Assembly: GCA_020073345.1 (NCBI GenBank)
Contig: JAIQFI010000037.1
Coordinates: forward strand, 1 to 64,000
DNA length: 64,000 nt
Direction of reading: 5' to 3'
Origin: Terriglobia bacterium
GTDB taxonomy: Bacteria; Acidobacteriota; Terriglobia; Bryobacterales; Bryobacteraceae
Position 1 is the first letter of the stretch. The number at the start of each line of letters is the position of its first letter. The notes under the pieces were generated by a model. The model ran no database searches. It was not told the DNA's origin and worked only from the letters and a program-made list of their open reading frames with translations. Below are positions 30,520-37,155 of the stretch, piece by piece. A program made the position numbers and the translations under genes.

Positions 30520-31062
30520 TTATTTCTGATCGGGCGGCTTGTACGAAGGGTTCAACGTGCCCTTGGCGATCGCGATTTCGAGGAGCGTAGGATAGAACTG
30601 GACGAAGGTGTGCTCCACCGCCGCGTTCGCGCTGTGGCAGGCATTGCACCCAGCTTCGGGCCCTAACACCTTAGCGGTGGTCGCGTTGCCGTTAAATGCA
30701 AAGTAACCCCATCCGTCCTTAAAACGAGCTGTATCTTTCACCGCGGCTTCAACGGCAAGAAGGTTCGTTTGGTATTGGCCGCCTTTATTGATGGAGCCTT
30801 CCGTAGCGGGCTGCCGAATTTCGAGAGCGAAAATAGATTTGTCCGGCCATTTCCCGGTTTCAACAAACTTACGATAAGCCGACGGTTCGACGAACACATT
30901 GCCAAACGGCAGAGGACCAGTGCCGTAGTTCATACCCACGCCGGAGCTCAGGAAGATCCATTCGCGATAGGTTTTGGGGCGCACGAGCTGACCGTCCTTG
31001 TTGAACTCGAGATCGGCTCCCAGCAGGAGCAAAGGTAGCAGCAAGAAGGCAACAGTTTTCAT
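30520..31062 (-). CDS. Cytochrome P460-family secreted heme protein
   Basis: A 180-residue exported protein (signal peptide MKTVAFLLLPLLLLGA) of the cytochrome P460 family: a beta domain with YREWIFLSSGVGMNYGTG, WPDKSIFALEIRQ, DGWGYFAFNG and the single c-type heme motif CNACH near the C-terminus. Known members oxidise hydroxylamine or bind NO through a heme crosslinked to Lys. Unusually it is the last gene of the lysine operon: its ATG overlaps the dapD stop, so it is under lysine-riboswitch control if the operon is one transcript (inference). Confidence 0.85.
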   Translation of the reverse strand: MKTVAFLLLPLLLLGADLEFNKDGQLVRPKTYREWIFLSSGVGMNYGTGPLPFGNVFVEPSAYRKFVETGKWPDKSIFALEIRQPATEGSINKGGQYQTNLLAVEAAVKDTARFKDGWGYFAFNGNATTAKVLGPEAGCNACHSANAAVEHTFVQFYPTLLEIAIAKGTLNPSYKPPDQK

Positions 31063-31895
31063 CTGAGCAAGTCCTCCAGTTGGACGCGCGAGTCCGTTTT
31101 TTCATCCCTATATTTCACGATCACTGGGGTGTACAACGATACGTCCCACTCTTTTCCCTTGCCGCTGGTGATGGCGCGCGAGCCAGCGACCACGACCGCG
31201 CCTTCGGGAATCACCAGAGGATCATCGCCCTGGGCAGAAAGGACCACGCCGCGAGCCACGTCGTAAACCGGCGTCGAGCGCGTAACGATCACGCCGCTTC
31301 CGAGCACGGCTCGGCGCTTGACCACGGTGCCTTCATAGACTCCGCAGTTCCCGCCGACCAGCACGTCGTCTTCGATGATTACCGGGAGCGCGCCGACGGG
31401 TTCGAGCACGCCGCCGATCTGCGCCGCAGCGGAGATGTGGCAACGCATTCCAACCTGGGCGCAGCTTCCTACCAGCGCGTGCGAATCGACCATGGTGCCG
31501 TCGCCCACCCACGCTCCCGCGTTGATATACATCGGAGGCATGCACGTCACGCTTTTGCCGATGAAGCAGCCGTCGCGGATGCTGGAGCCGCCCGGCACAA
31601 TGCGGACGCCACTCGAGGCCGTGATCCGCTTCACCGGCCATGTGGCTTTGTCGAAGAACGGCTGGCGGGTCGCGTCCACCGACATGTCGACAATTCCGCC
31701 CATGCGAAATCCCAGCAGAATCCCTTTCTTGACCCACGGGTTGACGCGCCAGCCGGTTTTCGAGGATGAATCTGGCTCGGCGGCTCGTACCGCGCCCGTA
31801 TTCAGCGCGTCCTTAAGACGGGCGAACAGCGCGAAATGTTCTTCGGTGTAAACGGTAGGTTTTTGGTCGAACAGAAGTTCGATCTCAGTCTGCAT
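31059..31895 (-). CDS. dapD: Tetrahydrodipicolinate N-succinyltransferase
   Basis: A 278-residue hexapeptide-repeat acyltransferase. The core has repeated turns (DGCFIGKSVTCMPPMYINA, AWVGDGTMVDSHALVGSCAQ) and the C-terminus LEPVGALPVIIEDDVLVGGN, typical of DapD. It succinylates tetrahydrodipicolinate in the succinylase branch of lysine/DAP synthesis, which agrees with a DapE-like gene at the operon head. It overlaps dapA by 11 bases and the P460 gene by four. Full length for the family. Confidence 0.95.
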   Translation of the reverse strand: MQTEIELLFDQKPTVYTEEHFALFARLKDALNTGAVRAAEPDSSSKTGWRVNPWVKKGILLGFRMGGIVDMSVDATRQPFFDKATWPVKRITASSGVRIVPGGSSIRDGCFIGKSVTCMPPMYINAGAWVGDGTMVDSHALVGSCAQVGMRCHISAAAQIGGVLEPVGALPVIIEDDVLVGGNCGVYEGTVVKRRAVLGSGVIVTRSTPVYDVARGVVLSAQGDDPLVIPEGAVVVAGSRAITSGKGKEWDVSLYTPVIVKYRDEKTDSRVQLEDLLR

Positions 31896-32793
31896 GCGAA
31901 CTCCGGGCGGCTGCGAGCAAGCCGGAGGACTTCAGCACGGCTTCGATTTTCGCGCGATTGGCCTCTGAGGGCGGAACCATCGGCAACCGGAAAACGGGCT
32001 CCAGTAATCCCATCATGGCCATCGCCGCCTTCACTGGGCCAGGATTCGTCTCGCAGAAATTCACTTCCATCAGAGCGAACCATTGTCGCTGGAGGCCGCG
32101 TGCGCCGGCGAGATCGCCCGCGAGAGCAAGCTTTGTTAACTTGCTGAATTCCGCTGGAATCTCGTTCGCTACGACTGAAATCACTCCGCGGCCGCCGAGC
32201 GCGATCAGCGGAATGGTGATGGCGTCATCGCCGCTCAGGACGATGAACGGTTCCGGAAGCAGGTGGAGCACGGTGGCCATCTGGCCGATGTTTCCCGAAG
32301 CTTCCTTAACGCCGACGATGTTTTCGATTTCCGCCAGACGCTTGAGAGTGGCAGGCTCGACATTGACCCCGGTGCGTCCCTGAATGTTATACACCACGAT
32401 CGGCAGGGAAACGGCTTTGGCGATGGCTTTGAAATGCTGGACCAGACCCTCTTGCGTGGGCTTGTTGTAATAGGGCGTGACCGACAGGATGCCGTCCGCA
32501 CCCATGTGCCTCAACTCTGTGGCGATCTCGATCACCTCCGCGGTATTGTAGCCGCCCGCGCCCGCAAGGACGGGCACCTTCCCCTTGGCTTCTTCGAGCG
32601 TGATTTCGACCACGCGTAGATGCTCGGCGCGCGTAAGGGTCGGGCTTTCGCCAGTGGTCCCGCAGGGAACCAGGAAACTGATTCCAGCCTGGATCTGCCT
32701 GCGGACCAACTTTCGCAGACTTTGTTCGTCGAGCGACTGGTCCTTACGGAACGGAGTCACCAACGCGGTGCCGCATCCTGTAAACGTGGTCAT
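31885..32793 (-). CDS. dapA: 4-hydroxy-tetrahydrodipicolinate synthase
   Basis: A 302-residue (beta/alpha)8 aldolase. Visible signatures are PCGTTGESPTL, the Schiff-base Lys in IVGVKEASGNIGQ, and VYNIQGRTGVN, where YN(I/V)PGRT usually has Pro instead of Gln. It condenses pyruvate with aspartate semialdehyde, the first committed step to lysine and DAP. The ATG follows AAGGAG. It overlaps dapB by four bases. Confidence 0.95.
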   Translation of the reverse strand: MTTFTGCGTALVTPFRKDQSLDEQSLRKLVRRQIQAGISFLVPCGTTGESPTLTRAEHLRVVEITLEEAKGKVPVLAGAGGYNTAEVIEIATELRHMGADGILSVTPYYNKPTQEGLVQHFKAIAKAVSLPIVVYNIQGRTGVNVEPATLKRLAEIENIVGVKEASGNIGQMATVLHLLPEPFIVLSGDDAITIPLIALGGRGVISVVANEIPAEFSKLTKLALAGDLAGARGLQRQWFALMEVNFCETNPGPVKAAMAMMGLLEPVFRLPMVPPSEANRAKIEAVLKSSGLLAAARSSHAD

Positions 32794-33452
32794 AGAATCT
32801 CCTTAAACTCAAACACGCCCTTCTTGCCTGGAATCCATTGCGCCGCTTTCAAAGCGCCGCGCGCAAACCCTTCCCTGCTGCGGGCCGTGTGACGCAGCGT
32901 GATGGTGTCAGCGGCGGAATCGAACCCGATCTCATGCGTTCCGGGATGAGCTCCGGCCCGATTGGAGCTGGTATCAATGTTGCGGTCATACCCGGCAGCC
33001 TTCATCTCCTTCACCAGCGCCAGCAGCGTCCCCGAGAGCGCATCCTTCTTAGTGTGGTGGTGGATTTCCCAGGCCCACGCGCCATACGCCGGCTCGTTGG
33101 CCAGCAACCGTGCAGTCTCGTGCACCGCGCGCAGGAATACGTTCACGCCAATCGAGAAATTCGCGGCCCAGACCAGTCCCGAGCCGCCTTTGTCGATAGC
33201 GGTTCGCACCCGATCCATGTGCTCCAGCCAGCCAGTGGTTCCGACTACGGTCGGAATGCCCAACGCGGCCAAAGCTTCGATGTTCCCGAGCGCCGCGTCA
33301 GGAGTACTGAACTCGATCGCCACATCGGAACCTTTTAGTGACCCCGGATCGTAGCCAACGTCGACGCGCGCATGAATCGTAAAGCCGTACTCCGGCGCAA
33401 GCTGCTCGATCAGCTTGCCCATTTTCCCGTAACCGATAATCGCGAGTTTCGT
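32790..33452 (-). CDS. dapB: 4-hydroxy-tetrahydrodipicolinate reductase, probable ACG start
   Basis: About 220 residues. The first ATG (33422) would cut the Rossmann fold: the ten codons before it read KLAIIGYGKM, the expected NAD(P)-binding GxGxMG motif. In that frame an in-frame stop (the lysC stop, 33464-33462) leaves no ATG, GTG or TTG, but ACG at 33452 lies 6 bases after AGGAG. The rest is normal: VVGTTGW, NFSIGVNVFL, EIHHHTKKDALSGT. It reduces 4-hydroxy-tetrahydrodipicolinate. An ACG start or a point change of ATG are the choices. Confidence 0.9.
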   Translation of the reverse strand, partial: TKLAIIGYGKMGKLIEQLAPEYGFTIHARVDVGYDPGSLKGSDVAIEFSTPDAALGNIEALAALGIPTVVGTTGWLEHMDRVRTAIDKGGSGLVWAANFSIGVNVFLRAVHETARLLANEPAYGAWAWEIHHHTKKDALSGTLLALVKEMKAAGYDRNIDTSSNRAGAHPGTHEIGFDSAADTITLRHTARSREGFARGALKAAQWIPGKKGVFEFKEIL

Positions 33453-33461
33453 AAACGTCTC

Positions 33462-34811
33462 CTATTCGAATGAAGCCGGATCTGGAGTTCGAAAGAACTC
33501 CCGGTGGAGCGATTCTACCGCGCGCTGGAGGTCCGGCGCGGCCACCACCAAGCTCAAATTCAACTGCGAAGCGCCTTGCGATACCATGCGCGGCCGGATG
33601 CCGGCCAAAGCGGCGAAAGCGCGAGCGGATACATTGTCGCAGTGACGGATATTCTCGCCTACCATGCAGACAATCGCCAGATTCTCTTCGATCGAGACTT
33701 CGGCGAAGGCTTCCAGCTCGGCCTGGATCGGCGTCAGCGAGCGCGTATTGTCGATGGTCAATGAGACGCTGACTTCGGATGTAGCGAGCATGTCCACGGA
33801 CGTTTCGTAGCGATCGAACACCTCGAAGATACGCCGCAGGAAACCGTGGGCCATCAGCATGCGCGTGGAAACAATGTTCAGCAGCGTGATATTGCGCTTG
33901 CAGGCGATGGACCGGATAGGAGTCGAACAGGGCGGCGGATCGGAGACGATCAGCGTCCCTTCGACTTCGGGCCGGCGGGAGTTGAGAATCCGCACCGGAA
34001 TGTTCTTCTCGATGGCGGGCAGCACGGTGGCGGGATGCAGCACTTTGGCGCCAAAATACGCGAGCTCCGCGGCTTCGGTGAACGAACAGACTTTCACGCG
34101 ATGCGCACCAGGAAGTACGGTCGGATCGGCCGTGAGCATGCCGTCGACGTCGGTCCAGATCTGGATTTCCTCCGCACCGATGCCCGCTCCGACGATCGAG
34201 GCAGTGTAGTCCGATCCGCCGCGACCTAGCGTTGTCGTGACGCCGTCCTCGGTAGCTGCGATGAAGCCCCCCATCACGACGACAGAATGGTCCAACATCG
34301 GCACGAGCGTTTCCCGAAGCCTGCGATTGGTCTCCTCGAACACCGGCGCGGCTTGGGTGTGTCGGCGGTCGGTGACGATGACGCTGCGGGAGTCGACATG
34401 TGCGGTGTGGATGCCGCAGCGGCGAAGATGCGCAGCGACAATCAAGCTGGAGATACGCTCTCCGTAAGCGGAAATCGCGTCGGTGGCGCGCGGGGTCAGC
34501 TCGCGCATCACCGCCAAGCCGCGCACCAGCGCGTCCAGATCCTGGAAGTAGGCCTCGACAATATCGTCGGTATCCAAACCAGCCGATTCGCGCAAATGGA
34601 ACTCGCGCAGTTCGTTTAGTTTGTCCAGCGCGGCCTTGAGTTCGCCAGCCACCGCATCCGCGGCGATCGCCAACAGCTTGTTAGTGGTCTTGCCCATCGC
34701 CGACACGACGACCACGGGCTTGCGGGCCAGCCGCGCACGCACGATGCCCGCTACTCGGGCGATGGCTTCGGCGGACTCCACTGAAGTCCCGCCGAACTTC
34801 ATCACAATCAT
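33462..34811 (-). CDS. lysC: Aspartate kinase
   Basis: A 449-residue aspartokinase of the monofunctional class. The N-terminal kinase domain starts MIVMKFGGTSVESAEAIARV and contains GRGGSDYTASIVGAGIGAEE and WTDVDGMLTADP; the C-terminal half has tandem ACT domains (ITLLNIVSTRM, SLTIDNTRSL), usual sites for lysine feedback. It phosphorylates aspartate, the entry reaction for lysine, threonine and methionine. It overlaps asd by four bases and ends nine bases before the dapB start. Confidence 0.96.
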   Translation of the reverse strand: MIVMKFGGTSVESAEAIARVAGIVRARLARKPVVVVSAMGKTTNKLLAIAADAVAGELKAALDKLNELREFHLRESAGLDTDDIVEAYFQDLDALVRGLAVMRELTPRATDAISAYGERISSLIVAAHLRRCGIHTAHVDSRSVIVTDRRHTQAAPVFEETNRRLRETLVPMLDHSVVVMGGFIAATEDGVTTTLGRGGSDYTASIVGAGIGAEEIQIWTDVDGMLTADPTVLPGAHRVKVCSFTEAAELAYFGAKVLHPATVLPAIEKNIPVRILNSRRPEVEGTLIVSDPPPCSTPIRSIACKRNITLLNIVSTRMLMAHGFLRRIFEVFDRYETSVDMLATSEVSVSLTIDNTRSLTPIQAELEAFAEVSIEENLAIVCMVGENIRHCDNVSARAFAALAGIRPRMVSQGASQLNLSLVVAAPDLQRAVESLHREFFRTPDPASFE

Positions 34812-35842
34812 GCGCCGTGTACTCCTCCCTGCTGCACCAGCACTTCGGCGATTTGCACTGCATTGAGCGCCGCTCCCTTGAGCAACTGATCGCCCGCGAC
34901 GAACAGGGCAATCGATTTCCCGGAAGGGTCGCTGGTGTCTTGGCGGATTCGGCCGACCAGGATATCATCCTGCCCGGACGCATCGCGCGGCATCGGGAAG
35001 TAATTCTTCTCGGGATCGTCGACGATCTTAACGCCCGGCGCCTTCGACAATAACGCTGTTACTTCGCGCGGGGTGATGGGCCGCTCGCACTCGATCGTGA
35101 GCGCTTCGGAATGAGCCCGAAGCACGGGCACGCGTACGCATGTGGCGCTCACCCGAATTTCCGAGTCACCGAAGATCTTCTGAGTTTCCCGCGCCATCTT
35201 GGTTTCTTCCTCGTTATAGCCGGTCACCGGATCGATCTTGGTGTTGTGGCTGAACAAATTAAATGCGTAGGGATGTGGCAGCACGGTGTTCTCATATGGC
35301 TGGTTGGCCAGATATGCGCGCGTGGACTCGGTCAGCTCCTCCATGGCCGCGGCGCCCGCTCCGGAAGCCGCCTGATACGTCGCGGCAATCAAGCGCCGGA
35401 TACGATTGACCCGATGGATGGGCCACAGCGGCGTGATGCCGATGATGGTGGAGCAGTTGGGATTCGCGATGATCCCCTGATGCACGCACATGGCCTGGGG
35501 ATTGATTTCCGGAATCACCAGCGGCACGGCTGGGTCCATGCGAAACGCCGAAGAATTGTCGATGACCACGGCTCCCGCCTTCGCCGCAATCGGCCCGAAC
35601 TTCTTCGAGATGGATCCGCCCGCGCTGAAGAAAGCGATGTCGACATCGGCGAAGCTATGCTCGGTGAGCTCCTCCACCTCGATCTCCTGGCCTTCGAACC
35701 TCATCTTCTTGCCGCGAGACCGCGCCGACGCCAGCAAGCGCAGGCTGGCAATCGGGAATCGCCGTTGCTCCAGGCAGCGCAGGAACTCGACGCCCACGGC
35801 TCCCGTGGCTCCTGCGATCGCTACTCGATAATTCTTGCTCAT
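34808..35842 (-). CDS. asd: Aspartate-semialdehyde dehydrogenase
   Basis: A 344-residue enzyme: NADP-binding GATGAVGVEFLRCLE, catalytic Cys in IIANPNCSTIIGITPL, and the active-site RVPVLRAHSEALTIE. It reduces aspartyl phosphate to the semialdehyde used by DapA. Both ends overlap neighbours (dapE stop and lysC start, four bases each), so translation is coupled. Confidence 0.96.
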   Translation of the reverse strand: MSKNYRVAIAGATGAVGVEFLRCLEQRRFPIASLRLLASARSRGKKMRFEGQEIEVEELTEHSFADVDIAFFSAGGSISKKFGPIAAKAGAVVIDNSSAFRMDPAVPLVIPEINPQAMCVHQGIIANPNCSTIIGITPLWPIHRVNRIRRLIAATYQAASGAGAAAMEELTESTRAYLANQPYENTVLPHPYAFNLFSHNTKIDPVTGYNEEETKMARETQKIFGDSEIRVSATCVRVPVLRAHSEALTIECERPITPREVTALLSKAPGVKIVDDPEKNYFPMPRDASGQDDILVGRIRQDTSDPSGKSIALFVAGDQLLKGAALNAVQIAEVLVQQGGVHGA

Positions 35843-36846
35843 GGCTGTAATAATCGCCTCACTAATTTTTGATAGATCCCAATCGCTTCCACCAGTTCCA
35901 CCTTGGGAATCCGCTCTTCGGCAGTGTGCGCAAAGTGGATGCTGCCGGGCCCCAACAGAAAGGGCTTGCCCCAGGCTCCGTTGAAGGCCGGAATATCGGT
36001 GGTGTAGGACACAACGGTGGTTTCGAGACCATCCACCGAACCTAGATGCACGGCAGGGATGTACAGAACTTCTTTCGCCTCGGCCACGCCGCGCGATGCC
36101 TCGGCCACGGCGGCGCGGAGGCTATCGCCAGAATCGACCAGGCGGACAAATACCTCCGCGCGGGCATGATCCGGAATAATGTTGGGCGCTCGTCCGCCCT
36201 GAATCGTACCGATGTTCAGCGTGCTGGGGCCAAGAGTTGCATCGCTGGGCATGGGAATGCGGCGGATGCGTTCGAGCGCGTCAAGCAGTTTCTCAATAGC
36301 CGACTCCCCCAGATGCGGATAAGCGGAATGAGCCATGCGGCCTTGCGCGATAATCTCGTAACGCAAGGCGCCCTTGGAACCCAGCGCGAGCTTGTTCTCC
36401 GTGGGCTCGCCGTTGATCAGATAACGGCTGCCGCGCGGGTTTTTGGCGGCGGCATAGGCGCCGGCGCTATTGCGCTCCTCACCCACGACGAAAAGCAAGG
36501 CGATGCCGCGGACGCCATCGGTCACCAGCGCCTCGGCGGCGTGAATCATGGACGCGATGATGCCCTTGGTATCGCACGCGCCGCGCCCCCAGATGAACTC
36601 GGAATCCTCGCGCGAGGCGAAGAACGGCGGCACGGTATCCATGTGGGTCGACAGGGTAACGATGGGATCGCCCCAGTGCGCCAGGACGTTATGGCGATGC
36701 GGCTCGACTTCGAATTTTTCGGCCCGGCCGCCCGTACGCGCGGCGAGAGCCGTGAGGTGATCGAACAGGACCTGCCCGACCTTTTCCTCATTGGGCGTGA
36801 CTGAGTCGATGTCGATAAGCGCGCGCGTTAGCTGAAACGGGTCCAT
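35839..36846 (-). CDS. dapE: M20-family succinyl-diaminopimelate desuccinylase
   Basis: A 335-residue M20 metallopeptidase: TLSTHMDTVPPFF (metal His and catalytic Asp), GRGACDTKGIIA (bridging Asp), VVGEERNSAGAYA (catalytic Glu pair), INGEPTENKLALG and GPGSIHFAHTAEERI near the end. In this operon it is almost certainly the DapE-type desuccinylase; a LysK-type hydrolase is less likely as no LysW gene is seen. It is the first gene of the operon, preceded by the lysine riboswitch. The ATG at 36846 is directly after a CTCAAT/ATTGAG hairpin and lacks a clear ribosome site. Confidence 0.88.
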   Translation of the reverse strand: MDPFQLTRALIDIDSVTPNEEKVGQVLFDHLTALAARTGGRAEKFEVEPHRHNVLAHWGDPIVTLSTHMDTVPPFFASREDSEFIWGRGACDTKGIIASMIHAAEALVTDGVRGIALLFVVGEERNSAGAYAAAKNPRGSRYLINGEPTENKLALGSKGALRYEIIAQGRMAHSAYPHLGESAIEKLLDALERIRRIPMPSDATLGPSTLNIGTIQGGRAPNIIPDHARAEVFVRLVDSGDSLRAAVAEASRGVAEAKEVLYIPAVHLGSVDGLETTVVSYTTDIPAFNGAWGKPFLLGPGSIHFAHTAEERIPKVELVEAIGIYQKLVRRLLQP

Positions 36847-36847
36847 G

Positions 36848-36863
36848 CTCAATAACCATTGAG
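36848..36863 (-). promoter_or_regulatory. Hairpin next to the dapE start codon
   Basis: CTCAAT, loop of four bases, ATTGAG ends one base before the dapE ATG on the minus strand. It sits where a ribosome site should be, so it could hide the start as part of the riboswitch expression platform. Confidence 0.45.
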
Positions 36864-36900
36864 GGCTTTTCAGGAGACGCGCTGCCTCGTATAAATAGAG

Positions 36901-36919
36901 ACAGCCAGGAGAGGGCTGT
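36901..36919 (-). promoter_or_regulatory. Hairpin downstream of the lysine riboswitch
   Basis: ACAGCC, seven-base loop, GGCTGT: a perfect six-pair stem about 45 bases after the aptamer, followed on the minus strand by CTCTATTTAT. It may act as a weak intrinsic terminator of the switch. Confidence 0.45.
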
Positions 36920-36962
36920 GACCACTTCCCGATAGCGCTCCATCCGGCCCGGCAAAACCAAG

Positions 36963-37121
36963 TCGAATGACAGTGAACCGGTCTTAGCCGTGTTCACCAA
37001 CCGTAGCGCCTTAGATCCGGCGCATCGATTTCGGCGAGGCTGCCCCTTTCGCCCGGCGCTCCGGATCCACGGAATTGCGCGCCGAGGTACTGGTGGCCCT
37101 CGCTCCTCTACCAGAACTCGA
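36963..37121 (-). ncRNA. Lysine riboswitch (L-box) upstream of the dap operon
   Basis: In transcript sense (minus strand) the conserved L-box core occurs in order: GGTAGAGGAGCGAGG, then CCAGTAC, GGCGAAAGGGGCAGCC, TCGCCGAAAT, a GCGCC...GGCGC stem, a GTGAAC...GTTCAC stem, and ACTGTCATTCGAC at the end. P1 pairs TCGAGT (37121-37116) with ATTCGA (36968-36963). This order and the ACTGTCA end match lysine riboswitches such as those of asd and lysC in other bacteria. It binds lysine and lowers expression of the downstream genes; the 115-base leader after it holds two hairpins that could be the expression platform. Confidence 0.9.
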
Positions 37122-37155
37122 TTATCAGGATAGCACGACGGGCGGTCGCGCCTCC

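Follow-up and report, generated by a model that had tools for sequence, protein, structure and literature searches.

Introduction

Among described lysine riboswitches, a near precedent for the locus studied here is that of Candidatus Solibacter usitatus (Solibacterales), which a table in PMC5584792 places upstream of asd-lysC. For this acidobacterial order, a lysine riboswitch is already published (PMC5584792), and the aptamer and target that we describe are in themselves ordinary. Here we analyse a 64,000-nucleotide stretch of a Terriglobia bacterium (contig JAIQFI010000037.1, positions 1 to 64,000; hereafter the window), in which an element that is almost certainly a lysine riboswitch stands at the head of a dap operon. 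The table entry for Candidatus Solibacter usitatus comprises asd-lysC only, whereas in the window dapE comes first and dapB, dapA and dapD follow (PMC5584792). The Thermotoga operon given in the same source, asd-dapF-dapA-dapB-dapD-lysC-lysA-amidohydrolase, resembles the window in having a single lysine riboswitch ahead of most pathway genes, but it belongs to another phylum, has another gene order and includes dapF and lysA (PMC5584792).

When set beside the lysine riboswitches of Rfam family RF00168 in general, the element shares the full-length match, the core letters and the lysine-pathway genes downstream, but its expression platform lacks an intrinsic terminator that is conserved, and a Shine-Dalgarno sequence that could be masked is usually missing. 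The E. coli lysC riboswitch has a single target gene, lysC. With the present element it shares a predicted anti-P1 stem together with a hairpin in both states, as far as the descriptions in PMC5234074 and PMC10907184 go. According to the account in PMC5234074, ligand affects Rho termination at the E. coli thiC and ribB and Salmonella mgtA riboswitches; at thiC, access to a C-rich, G-poor Rho utilization (rut) site is altered, and in the ligand-free state an anti-P1 stem is formed. These three riboswitches respond to other ligands and are described as also modulating translation initiation (PMC5234074); a role for Rho at the present locus is one that we infer. As far as the literature matches listed show, the full operon, the family-wide spread and a platform without conserved terminator or Shine-Dalgarno sequence are new; none of the matches listed (in places the best 20 of 53 and the best 8 of 1,408) concerns the platform of this group.

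Results

Identity and extent of the aptamer

A preliminary description, made from the sequence alone, had proposed a lysine riboswitch upstream of a succinylase-type dap operon and had named a covariance-model search with RF00168 as the check. This search returned a match at 37118..36925 on the minus strand, on which all the features described below also lie, with 85.3 bits (E 1.1e-21). The score is far above the family cut-off of 30, and the same layout is present in related genomes; the proposal thus stands. The window aptamer covers the model in full (1-182), and the conserved core letters AGAGG, AGUA, GAAAGG, CGCCGAA, CUGUCA and GGAGnGCUA are all found in the alignment, as is a five-helix junction with a closing P1. 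As in other members of the family, the element lies in the 5' leader of lysine-pathway genes. In the draft genome (6.23 Mb, 97.5% complete) it is the single RF00168 match at E <= 0.001. Taken together, these features leave hardly any doubt that the element is a lysine riboswitch, which would be expected to bind lysine.

The full-length aptamer occupies 36925..37118. The interval 36963-37121 first assigned to it enclosed a real aptamer but reached 3 bases too far upstream and fell 38 bases short at the 3' end. Since the P1 3' strand (CUAUCG, 36930..36935) falls in the omitted part, as does the end of the last helix, the P1 pairing does not lie wholly inside those 159 bases, as had been claimed. 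In the RF00168 alignment, the P1 3' strand pairs with the P1 5' strand (UGGUAG, 37108..37113), 36935-36930 with 37113-37108.

Distribution among relatives

The riboswitch was present in 57 of the 101 genomes searched and, within the same family, in 161 of 237 genomes, the window's own included in both counts. Titles of the close contig matches are mostly Bryobacterales, Bryobacteraceae, Terriglobia or Acidobacteria. The two odd exceptions, L189 (CALQCC020000002.1, titled Bordetella parapertussis) and L206 (DYJN01000009.1, titled Arcobacter), both carry an acidobacterial dapE, and the records look misnamed. Within the stretch read, the order dapE-asd-lysC-dapB-dapA-dapD follows the riboswitch in 38 of the 57 loci, the window among them, and nine of the other 19 are interrupted by contig ends. 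Among the remaining loci, in the stretch read, asd was not seen in G026 and G035, lysC in G012, either gene in G084 and G099, dapD in G046, or dapA and dapD in G054; the pathway genes of G095 stand in a different order, and none of the six was seen in G086 and G087, which belong to other families.

In 18 relatives the locus of the dapE ortholog gave no riboswitch match in Rfam searches, and in 11 of these all six genes are present in the same order. The occurrence of the same operon without the riboswitch suggests that the switch was probably gained or lost beside an older operon.

For the analyses below we assembled 151 loci, 145 from the family and six from outside it; the family matches G185, G184, G151, G183, G194 and further unlisted ones were left out, and G262 could not be placed. 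Leaders were compared in 144 loci, after removal of G086, G087, G063 and G102, with no dapE in reach, and of G226-G228, with no clear start. Folding was carried out on 142 leaders (G095 and G233 were excluded for long gaps; G084 and G099, which were kept, lie outside the family), representing 56 genera with labels assigned by hand from genome tables.

A motif scan predicted a promoter −10 element of the TATnCT class, TGCTATCCT, at 37127..37135, 8 bases before the window aptamer. From its position, transcription should start at about 37120-37118. Elements of this type lie at −32..−10 of the aptamer start in 114 of the 151 loci, compared with 4.9% in shuffles, so that transcription probably begins at the aptamer. 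In the riboswitch-free loci L206, L219, L223 and L232, a TATCCT-like promoter element was seen by eye approximately 14-20 bases before the dapE ATG, which suggests that these dapE leaders are very short.

Features of the leader

The leader, or expression platform, of the window spans 78 bases (36847..36924) and has no Shine-Dalgarno core before the dapE ATG. The core is missing at dapE in 118 of the 144 leaders and present in 26, where 13 would be expected from shuffles. In the first set of loci it was found at dapE in 4/53 cases, as against 35/48 at lysC, 39/46 at dapA, 25/43 at dapD, 11/13 at one asd type and 6/6 at the cytochrome P460 gene (dapB, the other asd type and alignments that began beyond residue 8 were excluded); among 92 leaders of genes other than dapE, taken from 53 sequences with gene starts from a rough caller, 50 have it. 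Shine-Dalgarno masking was rejected, with a core in so few dapE leaders and a start region that is equally accessible in both modelled states. Nor is the riboswitch the cause of the missing core, since the 18 riboswitch-free orthologs mostly lack it too (present in 4/18). By eye, the cobalamin riboswitch of the same genome (L270, G000:C59:78216-78388) is followed by a Shine-Dalgarno-like GAAGGGG and then ATG, unlike the lysine leader. A candidate upstream open reading frame, judged by eye to begin directly behind the aptamer, was set aside because its start is not common to all genus members.

Terminator-like elements were found in 23 of the 142 leaders and in 36 of 426 shuffles, a modest excess, and no conserved terminator was found across the 142 leaders from 56 genera. 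The leaders folded alone gave a z-score of 0.00 (0.01 over 56 genus means). An intrinsic terminator was rejected as the shared platform on account of the weak excess and the leader-alone values. The hairpin of six pairs previously noted in the window (ACAGCC/GGCTGT), followed by a weak U-rich tail, is nevertheless present, with a stem of −9.4 kcal/mol and the tail TATTTATA. The same place is flagged in the sister genomes G019 and G020 (tail TCTCTTTA) and not in G018, that is, in three of the four members of the subclade, and in several genera a hairpin before a U/C tail was seen by eye. A weak terminator may operate in the window's own subclade, of which G000 (the window's genome), G019 and G020 are flagged. 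Intrinsic termination at a weak hairpin with a pyrimidine-rich tail is, however, distinctly unlikely as the general output: the tails are interrupted by C or A, G018 is without one, the leader-alone z-scores are −0.56 in the window and −0.17 to −0.99 in G018-G020, and long-U terminators occur in other families (G086, G087, G095), so that the canonical form is available to the class. In predicted folds of the subclade genomes, the window's six-pair hairpin also competes with an 8-base-pair hairpin, GCTGTCTC/GAGGCAGC. The mode of action, left by the preliminary description between termination and translation, can be narrowed: for the family as a whole, the data support neither intrinsic termination nor the masking of a Shine-Dalgarno sequence.

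Predicted strand exchange between P1 and the leader

When the P1 3' strand was folded together with the leader, the z-score over the 142 leaders moved from 0.00 to −1.31, and the gain exceeded that of shuffles in 128 of them. Averaged by genus, leader plus P1 3' strand gave −1.22, with extra stabilisation in 51 of 56 genera; in the window the value was −1.93, and 6 of 200 shuffles did as well. Three lysine riboswitches of the terminator type, taken from other families of the class, behaved differently, with leader-alone z-scores of −2.4 to −5.6, values of −1.2 to −3.2 for P1 strand plus leader, and a gain smaller than that of shuffles. The GGAG of the P1 strand pairs with the leader in 138 of 142 best folds, but since 82% of shuffles also form this pairing, the strand-exchange signal in these models appears to lie in energy and not in mere pairing. 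This folding test was used in place of a simpler one, which scored duplexes of the P1 strand with the leader and gave a mean shift in z of −0.62 (standard error 0.10; −0.82 over 53) but a weak genome-specific signal.

In the lysine-free model of the window, the switching strand GGAGCGC at the aptamer end (36935..36941) pairs with 36873-36876 and 36878-36880, within the predicted anti-P1 element GCG-U-CUCC (36873..36880). Next to this element the predicted folds place hairpin C, GCUGUCUC/GAGGCAGC (36881..36905); in some relatives both sides of its stem are altered. The predicted fold for the genus has an outer stem, GGAUGGAGCGC with GCG-CUCC(AUCC), enclosing two hairpins. In an alignment of ten genus members, chosen by eye among the 21 because they have hairpin C, the outer-stem pairs are kept in 9 or 10 of the ten and are mostly invariant; individual pairs are kept in 7 to 10 members in the first hairpin and in 6 to 10 in the second, where some are changed on both sides. 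The hairpin at the start codon described earlier (CUCAAU/AUUGAG, 36848..36863; 36863-36858 with 36853-36848) forms in the window but is absent from the predicted folds of the sister genomes G018-G020. On the strength of the folding models, exchange of the P1 3' strand between aptamer and leader is very probable.

The two modelled states bear on the possibility that the output is translational control without a Shine-Dalgarno sequence, in which the folds would alter access of 30S or S1 to the dapE start and mRNA loss would be secondary. The absence of the core from most dapE leaders would suit such control, as would the position of the longest stretch complementary to the P1 strand, which in many leaders ends <=30 bases from the ATG; moreover, a title cited in PMC10907184 indicates that coupling between translation and Rho is possible in E. 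coli riboswitches. Modelled accessibility of the start region is equal in the two states, however (0.49/0.48, or 0.49/0.49 with 120 coding bases included), which led us to reject start-codon masking, and accessibility of the start codon is the same as with shuffled leaders. A pyrimidine tract exposed by lysine would also be expected to help S1 initiation, the wrong sign for an operon that makes lysine. Translational control of this kind therefore seems unlikely, although it deserves some weight.

What does change between the modelled states is the C/U tract, for which the unpaired value goes from 0.49 to 0.32; in 125 of 142 leaders the lysine-bound model gives the higher value.

Leader composition and a possible role for Rho

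At −40..−14, the dapE leaders have a pyrimidine content of 0.74 and a C-G difference of +0.27, compared with 0.48 and −0.04 in the 92 other leaders. The best 78-base C/G window of the leaders falls at a median of the 96th percentile of dapE coding windows (n=140). In a separate comparison of 79 of 80 dapE loci (L265 was left out), riboswitch-bearing leaders gave 0.70 and 0.23 (n=59) and riboswitch-free leaders were intermediate, with 0.56 and 0.08 (n=18). The riboswitch-bearing set was defined by a simple motif with two additions by eye; L245 and L254, whose starts were not clear, were dropped from it, and many of the loci compared come from the same genomes as the G-numbered loci. A C-rich, G-poor leader that stays unfolded in the lysine-bound state would be consistent with a rut site; averaged over the 56 genera, the modelled leaders have these properties, the C-bias being weak in the window. 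The genome also carries a rho gene (TIGR00767, 719.3 bits against a cut-off of 509.45).

We considered the following scheme, in which lysine would turn the operon off. A promoter abutting the aptamer would give rise to one dapE-asd-lysC-dapB-dapA-dapD(-P460) transcript under the riboswitch. Without lysine, the aptamer end (GGAUGGAGCGCUAUCGGGAAG, genus consensus) would pair with the leader segments CUCCUGG and GCG-CUCC(AUCC), with a hairpin between them, so that the leader is folded away and the operon expressed. With lysine, P1 would close and free the leader as C/U-rich RNA beside a start codon that has no Shine-Dalgarno sequence, and the exposed leader could then load Rho and cause early termination. 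As a whole, a lysine riboswitch acting by strand exchange, most likely on Rho loading, is the best explanation that we can offer, and we put it just short of an even chance. Rho as the output is, taken by itself, a tentative assignment, somewhat under even. A more far-reaching version, in which a switch common to the family (probably the Bryobacteraceae and some relatives) has the burying and baring of a C/U-rich rut tract as its sole conserved output, lacks both a terminator hairpin and a maskable ribosome site, and has Rho as the direct effector, is possible but rather doubtful.

Several observations, in addition to the terminator-like element of the subclade, weigh against the scheme. Among ten genus members folded singly, extra stabilisation by the P1 strand was absent in G007 and weak in G018 and G019, and in G004 and G005 the leader is structured alone (z −2.0 and −3.0). 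Swapping P1 strands between genomes had a small effect (mean z −0.19, standard error 0.08, 130 genomes). The window's own leader is weakly C-biased (pyrimidine 0.58 and C-G +0.06 over the whole leader), its best 78-base C/G window lies at the 68th percentile of dapE coding windows, and the leaders of G018-G020 are likewise weakly C-biased; the case for Rho therefore leans on the relatives. The leaders of G010 and G013, with 26 bases, are short for a rut site. Finally, the lack of a Shine-Dalgarno core at most riboswitch-free dapE genes means that this feature is not specific to the riboswitch.

An exposed leader might instead serve as an RNase E-type cleavage site, so that lysine would promote mRNA decay, as at E. 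coli lysC, whose riboswitch is described as controlling RNase E cleavage as well as translation (PMC5234074). The lack of structure predicted for the leader with lysine would suit a single-strand nuclease. However, the tract is C-rich and not A/U-rich, which would fit Rho better, and no cleavage site was searched for; we regard decay as the primary output as very unlikely.

Genes of the operon

Downstream of the riboswitch, the gene order in the window is dapE, asd, lysC, dapB, dapA, dapD and a cytochrome P460 gene. The seven genes previously placed under the switch are thus accounted for as six pathway genes and the P460 gene, but to call the dap operon entire was an overstatement, in that lysA and dapF are not among the seven genes; they were not sought elsewhere in the genome.

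The first gene (35839..36846, ATG at 36846) encodes an M20 peptidase of the ArgE/DapE family. Its product falls below the curated cut-off of all 25 models shown, of 41 matching, and the name DapE is a putative one, given from family homology and the dapD context. The aspartate-semialdehyde dehydrogenase gene asd follows at 34808..35842. Two very different asd types (about 30% identity) occupy the same operon place among the compared loci: the window type is found in 13 members of the window's genus, and the remaining asd-positive loci, eight of them in the same genus, have the other. The presence of both types at one place within a genus suggests that asd was replaced in place.

The product of lysC (33462..34811) scores above the cut-off of the lysine-sensitive aspartokinase 3 model, and from this match the lysine pathway is probably controlled at the enzyme level as well. 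The genome encodes two aspartokinases, the operon LysC and one elsewhere. The second is monofunctional (L089, G000:C8:159589-160974), and its neighbour reads like a cytidylate kinase gene.

The dapB gene (32790..33452) has an apparent ACG start codon (33452-33450) preceded by AGGAG. ACG start codons are very rare. The same arrangement in the sister genomes G018, G019 and G020 makes a sequencing error unlikely; with a crude pattern, which misplaced the start in some other loci, an ACG start was found in 5 of 49 loci. The operon continues with dapA (31885..32793) and dapD, for tetrahydrodipicolinate N-succinyltransferase (31059..31895). The cytochrome P460-family gene (30520..31062) has a 4-base overlap with the dapD stop; it is an addition to the operon found in 6 of the 57 loci.

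Discussion

The asd gene of the operon is the sole copy found, in a draft genome that may hide a second; the other Semialdhyde_dh match, considered as a second asd, reads by eye as argC beside argB. The supply of threonine, methionine and diaminopimelate also depends on asd. Complete shut-off by lysine would therefore also cut these three products, and we accordingly predict that repression by lysine is partial. Unless this is so, lysine excess should threaten the supply of threonine, methionine and the cell wall. If the proposed regulation is true, a lysine switch restrains the one asd copy found here, which is needed for threonine, methionine and diaminopimelate.

Riboswitch platforms are usually classed as being of the terminator type or the ribosome-site type, and the widespread set described here would fit neither. 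If the scheme is true, these leaders would offer a natural test bed for Rho-operated riboswitches outside the enterobacteria, in a phylum whose regulation has been little studied.
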